Shown piece after piece: positions 12,187 to 29,748 of a stretch of 30,651 bases of DNA (positions are counted from its first letter, which is position 1; every line of letters begins with the position of its first letter). The translations under genes and the position numbers were made by a program. The stretch is from a virus. The notes under the pieces were generated by a model. That model had not been told where the DNA came from. It did not search any database and saw only the letters and a list, made by a program, of their open reading frames with translations. The stretch lies in the IMG/VR virus record IMGVR_UViG_3300006059_000008, positions 1 through 30,651 of that record, one strand, 5' to 3'.

Positions 12187-13356
12187 ATGGCATCAGTTCG
12201 CAAGCGCGTCCGCAAAGACGGAACCCCATCATGGCAAGTCATGTGGAGGGACAACGACGGCACACAATCGTCAGTCACGTTCCTCACAGAACCGGAAGCG
12301 TACAGCCTACGCAACGCACTCAAAGCCAACGGCGGCAACTACTCCAAAGCAGAACAGGTCATCGCACCCGCCCCAGGCGTCCGCACCGTCACCGACATGG
12401 CAGAAGAACATATCAACCTGCTACTCAGGCCCACACCCCACACCATCGCCAACTACCACGGCTACCTGAGCAACCACATCAACGACAGCATCGGCGCGGT
12501 CCCCGTCGACCAACTCACCAGGCAGCAAGTCACGTCTTGGGTGCGTGGACTACTCAAAAAACGGACCGCACCCGGCCGCACCATGTCCCCCAAGACCATC
12601 AAGAACGTGTACGCGTTCCTATCCTCGGTCATGTCCCGCTCCGTCCAGCTAGAGTACCGGCCGTCAAATCCGTGCGTTGGTGTCGAGCTTCCCGTCTCAC
12701 GCGGTGTCGAGGACGAAACAATGTTCCTGACGTTTGAAGAGTTCACGCTTATCAGGGATCACATGGATGAGCGGTACAAGACTTTCATTTCACTGCTGGT
12801 GATGACGGGTGCCCGGTTCGGGGAAGCCACCGCACTAACTGTTGGAGACGTGAACGTGGCAGCGCGTCCCGCAACGTTGCGTATCAACAAGGCGTGGAAA
12901 GAGGACGGGCACAACCGGTGGTACGTTGGGCCACCCAAAACGCCCGGTTCAAAACGGACCATAGCAATACCCTCAACACTGGTGGATCTCCTGAAACCAC
13001 TCATGGCAGGTCGCCCATCAACGGAGCTGCTTTTCGTTGAGCCGAGCGGTGGCAGGATCGACCACCACAAGTTCTACCCTCAATATTGGAAGCGTGCAGT
13101 CAAGGCGGCACAGGATGCAGACAAAACATTCGTGAAGACCCCCAAACCGCACGGGCTGCGACACACGCACGCATCATGGCTGATCCAAGAGGGAGTCGAG
13201 ATGTTCAAAGTCGCGCGGCGGCTCGGGCATTCCAATACTGCGTTGTTGGACCAGATTTATGCTCATCTGATGCCGGATGCGCAGATTGAGTCTGTGACGG
13301 CGATTGGTCGGGCGATGCTGGGTGATGGGGAGTCGTTGAAAGAAATTGCGGGTTGA
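12187..13356 (+). CDS. int: Tyrosine-type site-specific integrase
   Basis: This 389-residue integrase has the expected three parts: an N-terminal arm-binding segment (1-60, SVRKRVRKDGTPSWQVMWRD), a core-binding SAM-like domain (about 68-165) and the catalytic domain (about 180-375). Catalytic residues are visible: Arg210 (TGARFGEA), Lys251 or Lys257 in the beta-hairpin, His322-x-x-Arg325 (PHGLRHTHAS), His348 (LGHSN) and the nucleophile Tyr358 (QIYAH). It joins attP to the host attB. The ATG at 12187 has a GGAGAGG site, and TAGAAT at 12160-12165 is a possible -10 box. Confidence 0.97.
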   Translation: MASVRKRVRKDGTPSWQVMWRDNDGTQSSVTFLTEPEAYSLRNALKANGGNYSKAEQVIAPAPGVRTVTDMAEEHINLLLRPTPHTIANYHGYLSNHINDSIGAVPVDQLTRQQVTSWVRGLLKKRTAPGRTMSPKTIKNVYAFLSSVMSRSVQLEYRPSNPCVGVELPVSRGVEDETMFLTFEEFTLIRDHMDERYKTFISLLVMTGARFGEATALTVGDVNVAARPATLRINKAWKEDGHNRWYVGPPKTPGSKRTIAIPSTLVDLLKPLMAGRPSTELLFVEPSGGRIDHHKFYPQYWKRAVKAAQDADKTFVKTPKPHGLRHTHASWLIQEGVEMFKVARRLGHSNTALLDQIYAHLMPDAQIESVTAIGRAMLGDGESLKEIAG

Positions 13357-20808: not shown

Positions 20809-23800
20809 TTAGAACTGTGTTTTGAGTGCCCAACCGATCGCGCCCGCAATCTGGGGGCCGGTCGCGTTGGTGGTGACGCTGACGTTGTTGGTGATGTTTT
20901 GCCCGCCACCGTGGGTCGTGTTCGACAACCGCTCCGGCGCACCGGTCTTGTTGTTGATCATCGACACGCCCGGAGGCACCCAACCACCTTGATCAAAGAC
21001 CGGCACCACACCACCGGAGGCGTACCCGCCAGCCTGGTTGTAAGCACCGGCGAGGGAACCATAACGGCTGATCGCATAGTGCATGGACGCCAGAATGTTT
21101 GACATGGGGTCGTAGATGTTCGAGTTGTACCCGGGCATTGCGTAGGCGCGGAACGTGGGGTCAATGACCTGCATGAGCCCCTTAGAAGGGATGCCAGCGG
21201 CAGCGTTACTGTCCCAGTTGTTGATCGCGTTCGCGTTACCACCCGACTCCTGATTCATACGGCGCAAGGTCGTATTCAACAGGCTGGCGGGTTGGCCCAT
21301 CATGGCGAGGGCGGTAAGGACCATGGAGGACCATTGCCCTGTACCGCCAACACTTCCCCCACCACCACCGGAACCGGTGTTCCCACTACCAGTGGCGGCT
21401 GGCGGGGGTGCCATAGCACCAACGAGCTGCTTGGCCTTCGCACCGAGCCCGTCAACAACGTTGATGGGGAGTTGGAACGCCATCTGCCCGAACTTGCCGC
21501 CAGGGGCAAGATGCTGCATCGCTTTCACGGGGCCGGTGATCATGGATGTGATTGAACCGATAGGGTCAGCCAAGAAATTACCGACACTGGAAACGACAGA
21601 ACCTATGGCGGAACCGATCCCACCGATGATCCCTGCAATGCCACCGTCCGCGTAGCCAACAACCCCGCCGTCTGCGTAGCCCATGGCTTTGCGGATCGCA
21701 CCAACGCCGCCAGACTTCGCCAGACCATTCATCCGGTCGACACCATCAGAGCCCACAGCGCGCGCCCACTCGGGCCGCATGATTGCCTCACCACCGCTGA
21801 CGGCGATGAGGTGTGTGTCACGTCCCGGCGTGTAACCGGGGCGGGTACCGTAGATGCCACCGTCAGCGAACCCGGCAGACACGTTGGGCAGTTTCAGATC
21901 CAGACCAACCGCACCAGCGATATTGTTCCAAACCTTCTCAATACCGTTCGTGTAGACCGTGTCCACGATCCAGCGGACAGGGGATGCGGCGGCGTCCTTG
22001 ATCTTGTTCCATGCGGCCCCAATGAATTTCTGGGTCGCATCGAACGCCAATCCGATCGCATTGATGCCGATTTTGAACGGGGTGAACACATTATTGTCGA
22101 TCCAGCTCCACCCGGCGGATGCGACATTTTGGATGCCCTGGAAAGCGGGGGCGATCGCGTTTTTCCACAGCCAAGTACCGGCCGCGCCGAGGAGCTGAAA
22201 TTCCAGCTTCCAGGGTGCGATGACAAGGTTCTTGATCCAGTTCCATGCCGACCCAATGAAATTGGTGATGTTGTTCCATGTGGTCATTGTCGAGGTGGTG
22301 ATGTTGGACCAGACGAGTTTGAAAACGTCGCTGATCTGGGTCCAGTGGGTGACAACGAAAAGTACGGCGAGCCCGATGGGGCCAGTCAGGATTCCAAGGA
22401 GCAGTTGCCAGTGCTGTCCAACGAAGTTGACGACGTCACCGATGATGGTTTGGATGAAGGAGAACGCGGCGTTCACGCCATCCTTGAACCAACCAATGTT
22501 GTTGTACGCGATAACGAACCCAGCGACAAGTGCACCGATGGCGAGGATGACGATCCCGATAGGGTTGGCATCCAGTGCGGCGTTCAGGAGCCATTGTGCG
22601 CCGGCGACTAGTTTTGTCCCCAACGCCCACGCAGCCTGTGCGACCTGCACAGTTTTCGTGATTACGTACAGCGATGCGAGGCCGCCGACGAGCACACCGA
22701 CAGCGACACCCAACCCGATAGCGACGCCTTGGTTGTCTTTGAGGTAGTTGAAGAACCCCATGAAACCTTTGAGAGCGTCCTGCAACGGTGGCAGGAGGGC
22801 GGTGCCGATCATGACGCCCAGGTCTTTCGCCGTAGCGAACACCATCTTGAGCTGGCCTTGGAACGATGAGGCGTTACGTTCAGCCGCAGACTCCACGGCC
22901 CCGTGCTTCTCAACAGCCTTCGACGCCGTTTCGAACGCCTCGGCGCCGCCGCTCATGACACCATTCATGGCCCCAGCCGCCCCAGCACCAAACAAGGCTG
23001 TTTCAGCAGCCTTTTTCTGCTGGTCAGACATGCCAGCCAACGCGGGGGAAAGCTTCGAAATGGCTTCCTGCATACCGATGAACTTGCCCGAGCTGTCGTA
23101 AACATCGACACCCAAAGTTTTTAGTTCGTCCTTGGTCGCTTGAGATCCGCCCAAAAGTGTTGTCATGGCACCGTTGACGGCCATGAGGCCCTTGGACCCT
23201 GTAATTCCGTGCTCACCAAGATCAACCATGAGTGCGGCGGTGTCACCCAACGATGGGGCGGCAATGCCTAGTTTGCCGTGCAGCTTATCAACGGCCGTTG
23301 CAATGTCCGCGATGGGTGTGTTGAGCAGGGTGGAGGCGTTGAAAAGGGTGTTGGAGGTTTCGGCGGCATCAGCAACCGAGATATGGTAGGCCTGCATGAC
23401 CGTGGACAGGGTCTTCGTCGTGTCCGCAAGGTCCCCACCGGAAGCTTCGGCAAGATCTGAGGACGCCTTCATGACCTTGAGTGCGTCACCGGAGGATAGT
23501 GCATGGCCCTCAACGGTTTCCAACTGGCGTGCTACAGGACCGTAAGCATCCACCATCTGCTGGGCGCTAAACGTGGATGTCCCAGCAGTAGACAGGAACG
23601 CTTTACCAATATTGTTCGCGGCATCCGTGGTGATCTGGGCGCTACCAGCAAGCTTGTTCGTGGATTCCTGAAACTCGGCAGCCATCTTGACCGACTCGAC
23701 ACCAACCACAGCAGCGGTACCCGCCAACGCGAGGAACGCGGCCTTACCAACACCCTGCATCTTCTGCCAAGCAGCACCAGACTTCTCACCAGCCGCCGAC

Positions 23801-23907
23801 GCCTCAGCCGCCATCTTGTTCGCTTCGACCGAAGTCTCACGCATCTTCGCAATGGCTTCATTATTTTTGGCAACGATCTCAACAACCATCGGAGGCAACA
23901 AGCTCAA
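20809..23907 (-). CDS. Tape measure protein with C-terminal lytic transglycosylase domain
   Basis: This 1032-residue protein sets tail length. The N-terminal part is helical and Ala/Glu rich, followed by a PhageMin_Tail-type region (about 90-400). Hydrophobic segments lie in the middle (about 385-545, for example IGIVILAIGALVAGFVIAY). Later repeats of ADGG(I/V) type occur near residues 670-780. Near residue 886 an SLT-like lysozyme domain appears: RMNQESGG with a catalytic-type Glu, KGLMQVIDPTF and ISRYGSLAGAYNQAGG. This domain could cut peptidoglycan during DNA entry. The TTG at 23907 has an AGGAGG site five bases upstream. It is by far the largest gene, as expected. Confidence 0.95.
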   Translation of the reverse strand: MSLLPPMVVEIVAKNNEAIAKMRETSVEANKMAAEASAAGEKSGAAWQKMQGVGKAAFLALAGTAAVVGVESVKMAAEFQESTNKLAGSAQITTDAANNIGKAFLSTAGTSTFSAQQMVDAYGPVARQLETVEGHALSSGDALKVMKASSDLAEASGGDLADTTKTLSTVMQAYHISVADAAETSNTLFNASTLLNTPIADIATAVDKLHGKLGIAAPSLGDTAALMVDLGEHGITGSKGLMAVNGAMTTLLGGSQATKDELKTLGVDVYDSSGKFIGMQEAISKLSPALAGMSDQQKKAAETALFGAGAAGAMNGVMSGGAEAFETASKAVEKHGAVESAAERNASSFQGQLKMVFATAKDLGVMIGTALLPPLQDALKGFMGFFNYLKDNQGVAIGLGVAVGVLVGGLASLYVITKTVQVAQAAWALGTKLVAGAQWLLNAALDANPIGIVILAIGALVAGFVIAYNNIGWFKDGVNAAFSFIQTIIGDVVNFVGQHWQLLLGILTGPIGLAVLFVVTHWTQISDVFKLVWSNITTSTMTTWNNITNFIGSAWNWIKNLVIAPWKLEFQLLGAAGTWLWKNAIAPAFQGIQNVASAGWSWIDNNVFTPFKIGINAIGLAFDATQKFIGAAWNKIKDAAASPVRWIVDTVYTNGIEKVWNNIAGAVGLDLKLPNVSAGFADGGIYGTRPGYTPGRDTHLIAVSGGEAIMRPEWARAVGSDGVDRMNGLAKSGGVGAIRKAMGYADGGVVGYADGGIAGIIGGIGSAIGSVVSSVGNFLADPIGSITSMITGPVKAMQHLAPGGKFGQMAFQLPINVVDGLGAKAKQLVGAMAPPPAATGSGNTGSGGGGGSVGGTGQWSSMVLTALAMMGQPASLLNTTLRRMNQESGGNANAINNWDSNAAAGIPSKGLMQVIDPTFRAYAMPGYNSNIYDPMSNILASMHYAISRYGSLAGAYNQAGGYASGGVVPVFDQGGWVPPGVSMINNKTGAPERLSNTTHGGGQNITNNVSVTTNATGPQIAGAIGWALKTQF

Positions 23908-23916
23908 CGGGTCCTC

Positions 23917-24357
23917 CTAGATGACGTATTTGGTCCAGTTGGTGGCAACAATGCTGGGGAGTTTCTTTTGCAGCTCGTCGTAGGCGGGTTGCACGTACGG
24001 GAACGGGCGGGAGTTCATGATGCGGCCCAAACTGTCGGGGCCTTTCGCACCGAGTTCGACCCGGCGCGCGTACGCCATGGACGGCCCCGCTGTGCCGGAC
24101 CATTCGCCGATACCAATGTGTTCGATGCCTTGGGCTTTCAAGGACCGGCGTAGGTTGCCGGTGACGACGTTGGGTTTATTCCCGCCAACGTGTGGTTCCC
24201 CTGCGGCGTGGGAGCCCTCAAAACCGTTGATGGCTTGGTTGAGGAAATACTTTGTGCCTTCTTGCACGGAGGCTTTCGCGGCTTGGTCTGCCTGCGCACC
24301 GACCTTGATGAACGCGGCCTGAAACTCGGATAGCCCGATGATGTGCATGCTGACCAT
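23917..24357 (-). CDS. HK97 gp10-like tail-completion protein
   Basis: This 146-residue protein shows the HK97 gp10 family plan: a helical start (LSEFQAAFIKVGAQADQAAK), the VVTGNLRRSL block, YARRVELGAKGP and the ending RPFPYVQPAYDEL. These proteins complete or connect the tail at the head. Normally the gene lies before the major tail gene; here it lies between the chaperones and the tape measure, which is unusual. The ATG at 24357 follows AGGGGG by five bases. Confidence 0.82.
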   Translation of the reverse strand: MVSMHIIGLSEFQAAFIKVGAQADQAAKASVQEGTKYFLNQAINGFEGSHAAGEPHVGGNKPNVVTGNLRRSLKAQGIEHIGIGEWSGTAGPSMAYARRVELGAKGPDSLGRIMNSRPFPYVQPAYDELQKKLPSIVATNWTKYVI

Positions 24358-24366
24358 GCCCGCCCC

Positions 24367-25067
24367 CTACCCGATTGTTGGTGTGTGGGGGGCGGGTGCT
24401 GCGGCGTGCTGGTTCTGGCGCCGGTTCTCCTCGGTCACGATCAGGTTGTCAATGCGGAGCATCCACTGAATATCGTGCCGGGGCGTGTCCAAGTACTCGT
24501 CCTTGGAGCAGGCGAACAGTTTCCGGTACCGGTATTCGTCTAAACGGTTTCGGGTGTCGAGGGTGATTCCGGCGAAGTCTCCTGAGGCAAGGGATCGTTG
24601 GAGGAGCCAGAGCTGGGAAAAGGGGCGGCATCATCCGCTACGGTGACATCGTTGGGTTCAAACGATGCCGGGTCCGTGTCGGGGGTGACGCGTGACTGCA
24701 TGATGGCGGTGGTGAGTGCCGTGTACACGTCGAGGGGGATGTCTTGGACGGCGTCGACGGTTTCGGGGCGGGGAATGTCCAGCGTCCAGGATGCGAGTTG
24801 CGCGTACAGGGTGGCGTCCTTCATGCGGAGCAGCACGTTCGCTTCGTCTTCGGTCACGTCCAGGTCGGGGACCGGCTCCGGTTCTGTTCCGGCATCCTCG
24901 GCCGCCTTCGCAGCGGCGGTGGTCAGTTCATCGTTGCGGGCAAGTTTCGCCATGAGTCCGGAGTGCTGGTACTGGATGACTTCCATGGCGCGGATACGGC
25001 GCGGGGTCATCTCGGTGGCTTCAAGCAGGACTGCGGTGCCGCCGGGGATTTCAACTGTGTGTGACAA
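24367..25067 (-). CDS. Tail assembly chaperone GT, made by programmed -1 frameshift
   Basis: Translation starts at the TTG at 25067, reads 150 codons in the G frame and slips back one base at CCCTTTT (24618-24624). It then continues for 83 codons to the TAG at 24367. The G-frame codons at the site are CCT TTT, which re-pair as CCC TTT. The added part begins SQLWLLQRSLASGDFAGITL and includes the conserved-looking RYRKLFACSKDEYLDTPRH. As in lambda gpG/gpGT, the longer form would bind the tail tube while G coats the tape measure. The expected fusion is 233 residues. Confidence 0.82.
24540..25067 (-). CDS. Tail assembly chaperone G (no frameshift)
   Basis: This 175-residue protein starts MSHTVEIPGGTAVLLEATEM at a TTG (25067), seven bases after AGGAG; longer upstream readings lack a ribosome site. 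It is helical with MEVIQYQHSGLMAKLARND and an acidic, Ser/Pro-rich C-terminus after the slippery site, ending at the TAG at 24540. It lies between the major tail and tape measure genes, the universal position of tail chaperones. It would bind the tape measure and guide tail assembly. Confidence 0.82.
   Translation of the reverse strand: MSHTVEIPGGTAVLLEATEMTPRRIRAMEVIQYQHSGLMAKLARNDELTTAAAKAAEDAGTEPEPVPDLDVTEDEANVLLRMKDATLYAQLASWTLDIPRPETVDAVQDIPLDVYTALTTAIMQSRVTPDTDPASFEPNDVTVADDAAPFPSSGSSNDPLPQETSPESPSTPETV
24618..24624 (-). promoter_or_regulatory. Slippery heptamer for -1 ribosomal frameshift
   Basis: The minus strand reads CCCTTTT with G-frame phasing C-CCT-TTT, an exact X-XXY-YYZ site. 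The -1 frame is open from just upstream of it to 24367 and encodes a plausible GT extension, while the G frame ends 26 codons after the site. Confidence 0.85.
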
Positions 25068-25144: not shown

Positions 25145-26431
25145 TTAGAACGGTGTGGAGCTGGTGGTGCAGAGCATGCCCTGAACCGGTGACAGCATGC
25201 CGTCCAGGGCGTCTGTCGGGTTCATGAGCGCGTTGAACGCGGACGCGATAGTCATCCATGAGGTGTTAGACCCGGCGGGTGCTGCTGTCGTGTACGCGAT
25301 TTGGGAGCACCGCAACGTGATTGGGTGCGCCGGATCGTTCTGCGGTGACGACGTGATGACCAGTGCCGGTTGCGCGTTCGTGAGCAGGTTGATCAGGTCG
25401 GGGTCGGTAGAGCCTTGGAACACTGCGTCGATGGTTCCGGTCACGGTGACGGGGCCACCGAAGATCGCCAACGGTGCAGATGTCCCGTTCAGGACGGGGA
25501 TCGGCACGGTGGATCGTTTCATGTCGATCGTTGCCCCGGAACGTGAACCCACCACTGACCCCCCAATACTGATGAGGGTCGTGTACGGGGGGAACGGTGC
25601 CACGGTGGAGGGCGTGTTCGTGGGTGGTGTGACCGCTGTTGCGGGCATGCCAGCCCATGACACATCCACGGTGGAGTTCTGGTTGACAACGAACGTGAAT
25701 TTCAGGTCGACGGCGACCATGCCGGGGATCTGTTCGCACTTGTCACCCTCAAGCAGCCAGCCCGTGTAACTGGGTGGTTGGCCGTTTCCGGTGTTCAGCA
25801 GGGCGGTCTTGTGGACGTTGCCTGCCGTGGTGGGCGGGGCTCCCGCGCCGACCGTCAGGCCCGTGTCGGTGTAAGTCGTGACGTTGCCGAGGTTGGCGAC
25901 CTGCACGTTCTCCACACCAGCGGCGGTGCCACGGTAGACGTTGTAACCGGTCGCACCAGTCACAGCAGTCCATGACAGGACCTGTGTGGAGGTGGCACCC
26001 GTCAACAACGCGGTGACCTCGTTGGAGCCGATACCCTCACCACCAACAATGTCAGCGGTAACCTTCCAGTACGTGTTGCCCGCCGGGAGAGTACCACCTG
26101 TGGTTGCGGTGGTGCCCTTCGTCAACGTGGTTGCCGCCAGTGTCGTCACCGTGTCGGCAACACCCAGCATCGCCAACAGGTGAGGGAAAACAGAGTCCTT
26201 GTAGATCATTGTCTGGTAGGACAGGTCCGTGTACGTCATGCCTTGGGTGGCCTGGAAGTTGCCGCCCATCATGCCCCGCAGGTTGTTATCCGTCAGGACG
26301 GTCACGTTGGGGTTGTACTTCGGGTTGGAGACGGGAATCCAGATGGTCGGTGCAGCGACAGGGACACCGTAAGTGGTTTCCTTGGCGATACCCAACCATT
26401 GCTGGGAGCCCGGGGTGAAGTTGATTGTCAT
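25145..26431 (-). CDS. Major tail tube protein with inserted Ig/Fn3-like domain
   Basis: This 428-residue protein begins MTINFTPGSQQWLGIAKETTYG, the typical start of actinophage tail tube proteins (AKETTYGVPVAAP). The tube fold appears to be split by a beta-sandwich-like insert at about residues 98-203. The insert contains TTGGTLPAGNTYWKVTAD, TGATSTQV and VTGATGYNVYRG, the last resembling fibronectin type III. The insert is related to one in the capsid protein. The ATG at 26431 lies seven bases after AGGA. It is in the correct place before the chaperones. Confidence 0.88.
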   Translation of the reverse strand: MTINFTPGSQQWLGIAKETTYGVPVAAPTIWIPVSNPKYNPNVTVLTDNNLRGMMGGNFQATQGMTYTDLSYQTMIYKDSVFPHLLAMLGVADTVTTLAATTLTKGTTATTGGTLPAGNTYWKVTADIVGGEGIGSNEVTALLTGATSTQVLSWTAVTGATGYNVYRGTAAGVENVQVANLGNVTTYTDTGLTVGAGAPPTTAGNVHKTALLNTGNGQPPSYTGWLLEGDKCEQIPGMVAVDLKFTFVVNQNSTVDVSWAGMPATAVTPPTNTPSTVAPFPPYTTLISIGGSVVGSRSGATIDMKRSTVPIPVLNGTSAPLAIFGGPVTVTGTIDAVFQGSTDPDLINLLTNAQPALVITSSPQNDPAHPITLRCSQIAYTTAAPAGSNTSWMTIASAFNALMNPTDALDGMLSPVQGMLCTTSSTPF

Positions 26432-28293: not shown

Positions 28294-29748
28294 TCAGGAA
28301 AGGATGTTGCTGAGCACGGCCTGAGCGACGGGCGCACGGTTGATCAGGGTGGAAGTCGAGAAGACTTCACCATCCGTGCGAGGACCGCCGCCAGCCTGAC
28401 CCAGCACGCGACCGGAACCGTACAGGTAGTCCTGCAACGGCTCCAAGGAACGCAGCTCGAACACGTTGGAGATGTTCGAGTTCGGGAAGTTCACGTGATC
28501 GGTACGAGCGATCAACGTGCCCGGGATCATGTTCGGGTGAACCTCAACACGCACCGGCAAACCGCCAGCAGACTTGTTGATGTAGTGCCCGATGAAACCG
28601 CCAGCGGTCACGTCGGAACGCCCGTCTGAGCCGGGGGTGAAGAACGTGCTGTTACCGGCACCGTTACCCAACAGCAGGGATGAGATCGCGGCGGCGTCGA
28701 CAGCGGAGCACATGTAAGCGTCCGGTGACAGGAACGTCTTCGCGAAGATCGCGGCATTGAGCTTGTCCAGGGCGGCAATGTTCTGGCCCGACGCGGTGAA
28801 ACCTGCACCGTCGAGAGACTGGAAGATCGCACCGGAGTTGGTACCGCTACCGCGTGTGACGAGACCGGACGCGCCACCGGTGGCGTAGTCGCCGGCGAGG
28901 GTAGCCAGCAGGCCGTTGAAGTCCGAGAGCTTCGCGGAAGAATCCACGGCTGGCACAGCGGTCGGTGCAGTCTGGTACAGGGACGGCAGGGACGCGGGTA
29001 CGGGCTGGTTGGACCCGGCCGGGGTCGTGGTCCAGGTAACTGTGTTCACGACGGTCGTGGTGTTGTAGAACCCGTTCACGTACCAGTCGTAAGCGACAGC
29101 GCCCGGGATCGCCGGAACAGAAGCGGTCAATGTCGATGTGGCACCGGTGGTGACCTGTGAGGCGTTCGCAGCCGCAGCAGTCGATCCACCGTACTTGTAG
29201 TTGGAGCCCGTGCGGGCAGCAACACGGATCAGGTATGTTGCCGCAGCAACGGTACCGCCAGTGGTGACAGTTGACGTGGTGGCAACAGCGGGGGTGGGGA
29301 GGGCAAAGTTCTGTCCCCACAACGCCTTGTTGTCGGCACCGATCTTGTACGTGTTCATGGCGTTGAACACCTCGATGGCGCGGGCGTCAGCGAAACCCTT
29401 AGCCAAAATTTCGGCGTCCTTCGTGACCGTGTAACCGGTACCGATCTTCGCATACGCGGCCGACACGTTCATCATGTTGACGAGGTTCAGCGGGGATGCG
29501 TAGTCGAACGCGACGCCGGGGTCGGCCTGCTGGTTGTTGATGTCCGTCAGCACACGCCACATCGCATACGGGCCAGCCTGGTCAGGGCTGGTCTGTGCGA
29601 GGGTGTTGTAGAAGCTGGACGGGGCCGGGACCAGGGAGATAAGGTCACGCAGGTCAACACCGGTGATACCGGTCGCACTGGTGATACCGGTGGTCTGTGC
29701 TTTCCGGATCTGAGAAAGCGTCTCAAGCGAAATCTGGGAGTTATCCAC
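28294..29748 (-). CDS. Major capsid protein with inserted Ig-like domain
   Basis: This 484-residue protein has the size and place of an HK97-fold capsid protein. N-terminal helices are followed by an insert at about residues 153-262. The fold then resumes with a DFNGLLATLAGDYATGG segment, later DKLNAAIFAKTFLSPDAYMC and FELRSLEPLQDYLYGSG. The insert carries TTGGTVAAATYLIRVAA, TGATSTLTASV and GAVAYDWYVNG, which match the insert in the major tail protein. It may be a surface decoration on the capsid. The GTG at 29748 has an AAAGG site somewhat far upstream (11 bases). Confidence 0.85.
   Translation of the reverse strand: MDNSQISLETLSQIRKAQTTGITSATGITGVDLRDLISLVPAPSSFYNTLAQTSPDQAGPYAMWRVLTDINNQQADPGVAFDYASPLNLVNMMNVSAAYAKIGTGYTVTKDAEILAKGFADARAIEVFNAMNTYKIGADNKALWGQNFALPTPAVATTSTVTTGGTVAAATYLIRVAARTGSNYKYGGSTAAAANASQVTTGATSTLTASVPAIPGAVAYDWYVNGFYNTTTVVNTVTWTTTPAGSNQPVPASLPSLYQTAPTAVPAVDSSAKLSDFNGLLATLAGDYATGGASGLVTRGSGTNSGAIFQSLDGAGFTASGQNIAALDKLNAAIFAKTFLSPDAYMCSAVDAAAISSLLLGNGAGNSTFFTPGSDGRSDVTAGGFIGHYINKSAGGLPVRVEVHPNMIPGTLIARTDHVNFPNSNISNVFELRSLEPLQDYLYGSGRVLGQAGGGPRTDGEVFSTSTLINRAPVAQAVLSNILS

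Follow-up and report, generated by a model that had tools for sequence, protein, structure and literature searches.

Tail assembly chaperones produced in two forms by -1 frameshifting are well known in long-tailed phages. In phage lambda, G attaches to the tape measure protein and T brings in the major tail protein (PMC5009743), and for actinophages the PRFect data set, drawn from SEA-PHAGES, holds 2,397 joined chaperone genes that have been annotated as such (PMC10274946). The DNA analysed here, which we call the window, comprises the 30,651 bases of a virus record in IMG/VR. Based on its reading frames, its relatives and predicted protein folds, we infer with high confidence that a programmed -1 ribosomal frameshift yields two forms of a tail assembly chaperone. 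Like lambda gpG/gpGT, the proposed system is a two-form chaperone with a -1 shift close to the end of G, encoded between the major tail protein and the tape measure protein (PMC5009743). It differs in its site, C_CCU_UUU instead of the G_GGA_AAG of lambda, and in the presence of a neck gene between T and the tape measure gene. With the chaperones of the PRFect set it shares the gene position and, as predicted here, the mechanism (PMC10274946); unlike that set, the corresponding genes of phages Sonali and Mufasa8 have been left unjoined and are called hypothetical. The phenomenon is therefore the known one of lambda G/GT, and what is new is an unannotated chaperone family in which the position of the shift is fixed and the site itself varies.

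The short form of the chaperone, G, is a 175-residue product encoded on the minus strand at 24540..25067. Its TTG start codon at 25067, which is kept among homologues, is preceded at a distance of 7 nt by AGGAG (25079-25075). The candidate slippery heptamer, C_CCU_UUU, occupies 24618..24624 on the same strand, and reading the frames of the minus strand confirmed the proposal of a first-pass annotation that CCCTTTT stands in exact X_XXY_YYZ phase with G. Past the heptamer G continues for 25 sense codons, which encode a Ser/Pro-rich tail, and is closed by a TAG (24540..24542, minus strand); the tail had been described correctly, whereas the 26 codons assigned to it hold only if the stop is counted. 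The -1 frame is shut by a TGA two codons before the heptamer (24631..24633, minus strand) and then stays open for the 83 codons of the extension T, which with its TAG (24369-24367) covers 24367..24618 of the minus strand, both as anticipated. The resulting G-T fusion would be 233 residues long.

How much weight can be placed on the heptamer itself? CCCTTTT is not enriched per se (three occurrences in the window against 2.4 expected). Sites of the type X_XXY_YYZ (Y = A/T, Z not G) in phase with the gene that contains them are found twice in the approximately 7,062 codons of the window's genes, and the probability of meeting one by chance in the 29-codon overlap of G and T is about 0.008, or 0.005 by codon shuffling. 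The weight of the site rests on its conservation in relatives.

Among 50,697 phage records, the only matches were the Arthrobacter phages Sonali and Mufasa8, in both of which gp13 and gp14 are listed as two hypothetical proteins that are not joined; no paper on the chaperones of either phage was found in the open-access literature. Further members came from IMG/VR and from bacterial genomes, scanned with both single sequences and alignments, and include a prophage of Arthrobacter liuii (L037) and IMG/VR contigs. The comparison of the -1 extension with other phages that had been suggested at the outset thus recovered homologous -1 segments in Sonali, Mufasa8, the A. liuii prophage and the contigs, and each of the 36 tabulated members has a T homologue after G, in the -1 register. 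The absence of a conserved heptamer from relatives would have spoken against the frameshift; instead, the heptamer is kept in phase in the nearest ones. CCCTTTT is found in phase in eight relatives (Sonali, L005, L010, L011, L037, L066, L068 and L075), which together with the window form one clade in the tree (support 92/97). A -1 stop abuts the 5' side of the heptamer position in Sonali, L032, L035 and L075, and a 0-frame stop lies 3 and 6 nt past it in L034 and L051, respectively, so that family-wide these stops bracket the shift point within the heptamer and the positions closest to it. The whole-family alignments are too diverse for a pattern scan.

The extension T carries the marks of a protein. 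Residues conserved across the 36 members include LDTP, EYxYRK and LLRI, and the N-terminal helix of T is conserved and begins exactly at the slip site. An AlphaFold2 (AF2) model, built like that of G from alignments of the window and locus sequences, is a small helical domain (mean pLDDT 88), for which the PDB offered just low-Z helical matches and no clear solved match. The window T resembles the tail assembly chaperone family PHROG 9001 weakly (0.36), and 4 of 22 T relatives match the same family (best E 4e-5). The pN/pS of T is 0.2-0.8 in the -1 frame, and close pairs give ratios of about 1 or higher when T is read in the other frames; in the divergent pair of window and L005 the contrast is weak, 0.73 in the -1 frame against 0.80 and 0.88 in the control frames. 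The part of T beyond the stop of G has a coding-like G+C content by codon position in the -1 frame (0.61/0.41/0.82), which resembles that of G. Judged by these sequence measures, purifying selection acts on the -1 frame.

Could T be a small gene with an internal start of its own? Both public records, Sonali and Mufasa8, annotate it in that way as gp14, and in some members an ATG or GTG occurs 17-28 codons into the -1 frame. In the window, however, the first ATG of T is residue 54 of 85, and no start lies ahead of the EYRYRKLF core, so that T would be read only by frameshifting; a start before the conserved core is equally absent from 22 other members (23 of 36 overall). In addition, the annotated gp14 starts leave out the conserved N-terminal helix that begins at the slip site. 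We therefore reject an independent start, and consider a separate gene very unlikely. That the opening arose as a chance overlap or is the remnant of a frameshift mutation, with G alone functional, draws on the fact that its size is not unusual, as 84 codons in the -1 frame are reached at 9% of random window positions. Chance does not account for homologous segments with conserved residues in the same frame relation to G in every one of the 36 members, nor for pN/pS below 1 in the -1 frame, and these refute it; its probability is close to nil.

A different origin of the same fusion would be slippage during transcription at C4T4, for which the two adjoining homopolymer tracts, C and then T, can be cited. 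Known transcriptional slippage tracts are about 8-9 nt or longer, and runs of four fall far below them; moreover, relatives with CCCTACT or CCCAAAA at the site lack any long run. Slippage of the polymerase is thus extremely improbable, and we retain ribosomal frameshifting as the preferred explanation.

No amino acid sequence resemblance would have identified G. Searches of the window G against Pfam, PHROGs and PDB sequence profiles returned nothing convincing, and thus no detectable similarity to named chaperone families. The predicted structure (mean pLDDT 88) is closest in the PDB to 2ob9, the tail assembly chaperone of HK97 (Z 6.8, rmsd 3.4 over 82 residues), yet at 15% identity; the runner-up entry reached Z 3.8. 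The Z score is moderate, but with the HK97 chaperone as best match the model supports a tail chaperone fold for the G domain. 2ob9 was missed by a profile search against PDB sequences, and in the Foldseek viral library neither the G nor the T model had a match below E 0.001. The searched libraries, as these sequence comparisons indicate, barely recognise the chaperone family of the window.

The neighbourhood is that of a tail chaperone. Upstream of G lies the gene for the major tail protein (25145..26431, minus strand), which over two blocks shares 48-62% identity with Sonali gp12, annotated as a major tail protein, and is 62% identical to the copy in the A. liuii prophage. T is followed on the minus strand by a tail completion/Neck1 protein of the HK97 gp10 type (23917..24357; PHROG 5, E 8e-15) and by the tape measure protein (20809..23907; PhageMin_Tail, 1e-23, and several tape measure PHROGs), on which G and GT would be expected to act. 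The order major tail protein, G, T, neck protein, tape measure is the same in the A. liuii prophage. Heptamer phase and conservation, homology and selection in the -1 frame, gene order and the HK97-like predicted fold thus jointly support the initial proposal that a -1 frameshift joins chaperones G and GT.

Some further features of the region deserve mention. The Neck1 gene is placed between chaperone and tape measure and not, as is usual, upstream of the major tail protein, and Sonali, Mufasa8 and the A. liuii prophage all have it in this slot. An insert of about 100 residues (residues about 106-206) with an Ig/FN3-like look interrupts the major tail protein both in the window and in the A. 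liuii prophage; Sonali gp12 is devoid of it and aligns on both sides. An internal stretch (TSTVTTGGTVAAATYLIRV...AYDWYVNG) of the protein in the major capsid slot (28294-29748) resembles this insert, and head and tail may carry one type of surface domain. Elsewhere in the window, an ORF at 12187-13356 appears to encode a tyrosine integrase, which makes a temperate lifestyle probable.

How would the two forms arise and act? We infer the occurrence and the rate of the frameshift, as well as the roles of the two products. The majority of ribosomes would translate G through to the TAG at 24540. In a fraction of them, tRNA-Pro on CCU and tRNA-Phe on UUU would slip one base back to CCC and UUU (24624-24618), and these ribosomes would continue in the -1 frame to 24367 and so produce the G-T fusion. 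If the system works as in lambda, the tape measure protein would be coated by the G part, present in both forms, and the major tail protein would be recruited by the T part, with neither G nor GT staying in the virion. The identical heptamer, C_CCU_UUU, is used for -1 frameshifting by West Nile virus (PMC11507841); this is a eukaryotic RNA virus with a structured stimulator, and the shift sequence alone is comparable. In the window, the stem downstream of the site for which the first-pass annotation recommended a search did not emerge, as no candidate was better than dinucleotide shuffles (z about +0.3 to +0.5); the family mean z is about -0.6. Stimulatory RNA elements are not universal among chaperone frameshifts of the lambda type. 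An upstream Shine-Dalgarno-like stimulator was likewise not found in the window or in L005. GGAGG occurs upstream of the site in Sonali, L011, L037 and L075, where it overlaps conserved L-E-D/E codons and so may reflect protein constraint only.

Other branches of the family use different sites at the same junction: C_CCA_AAA, U_UUA_AAA, C_CCU_ACN/AUU and U_UUU_ACU. At C_CCU_ACN/AUU and U_UUU_ACU the P-site tRNA alone can re-pair, after which a Tyr codon, UAC or UAU, is read in the -1 frame, so that C_CCU_ACU, U_UUU_ACU, C_CCU_ACC and C_CCU_AUU appear to be single-codon sites. Such sites are unusual and not unprecedented, because Z_ZZN is already recognised as a minimal -1 signal (PMC5009743). 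They do not appear to match the named PRFect motifs, and no paper describing CCCTACT as a shift site was found in the open-access literature.

In the clade of L065, L067, L069, L072, L076 and L077, the shift position is taken by GTCTTTTACTGG, which forms a U_UUU_ACU site where only tRNA-Phe can re-pair. CCCTACTGGGGCCTC occupies this position in L012-L015, L017-L024, L030, L051 and L053 and in Mufasa8 (L004, L014), often with a 0-frame stop just 15 nt downstream of the site; in L012 the sole codon of the bracketed stretch that can re-pair at -1 is CCU, to CCC. The variant in L023 is CCCTATT, and its Tyr codon, TAT, is a silent change in the -1 frame that replaces Thr by Ile in the 0 frame. A change that is silent only in the -1 frame suggests that the -1 reading is what is kept.

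CCCTAYN sites call for at least three changes on well-supported branches of the tree, although the direction of these changes is uncertain with a midpoint root and several long branches. On balance we lean slightly towards a history that preserved the place of the shift and the protein junction and exchanged the signal between tandem and P-site-only sites. Single-codon sites look spread over the tree, and the tandem site of the window may derive from, or become, a single-codon one.

What are the implications for the phages concerned? In both Sonali and Mufasa8, gp13 and gp14 gain a function, as do the related prophage genes, and the gene models of the two phages can be corrected by joining gp13 with gp14. 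The chaperone family represents a natural series of sites at one protein junction, from canonical tandem heptamers to re-pairing of one tRNA, and offers ready material for dissecting the requirements of a -1 site in high-GC Gram-positive bacteria. If exchange between tandem and single-codon sites is borne out, single-codon -1 slippage would suffice for tail assembly in many actinophages and would have been missed by heptamer scanners.
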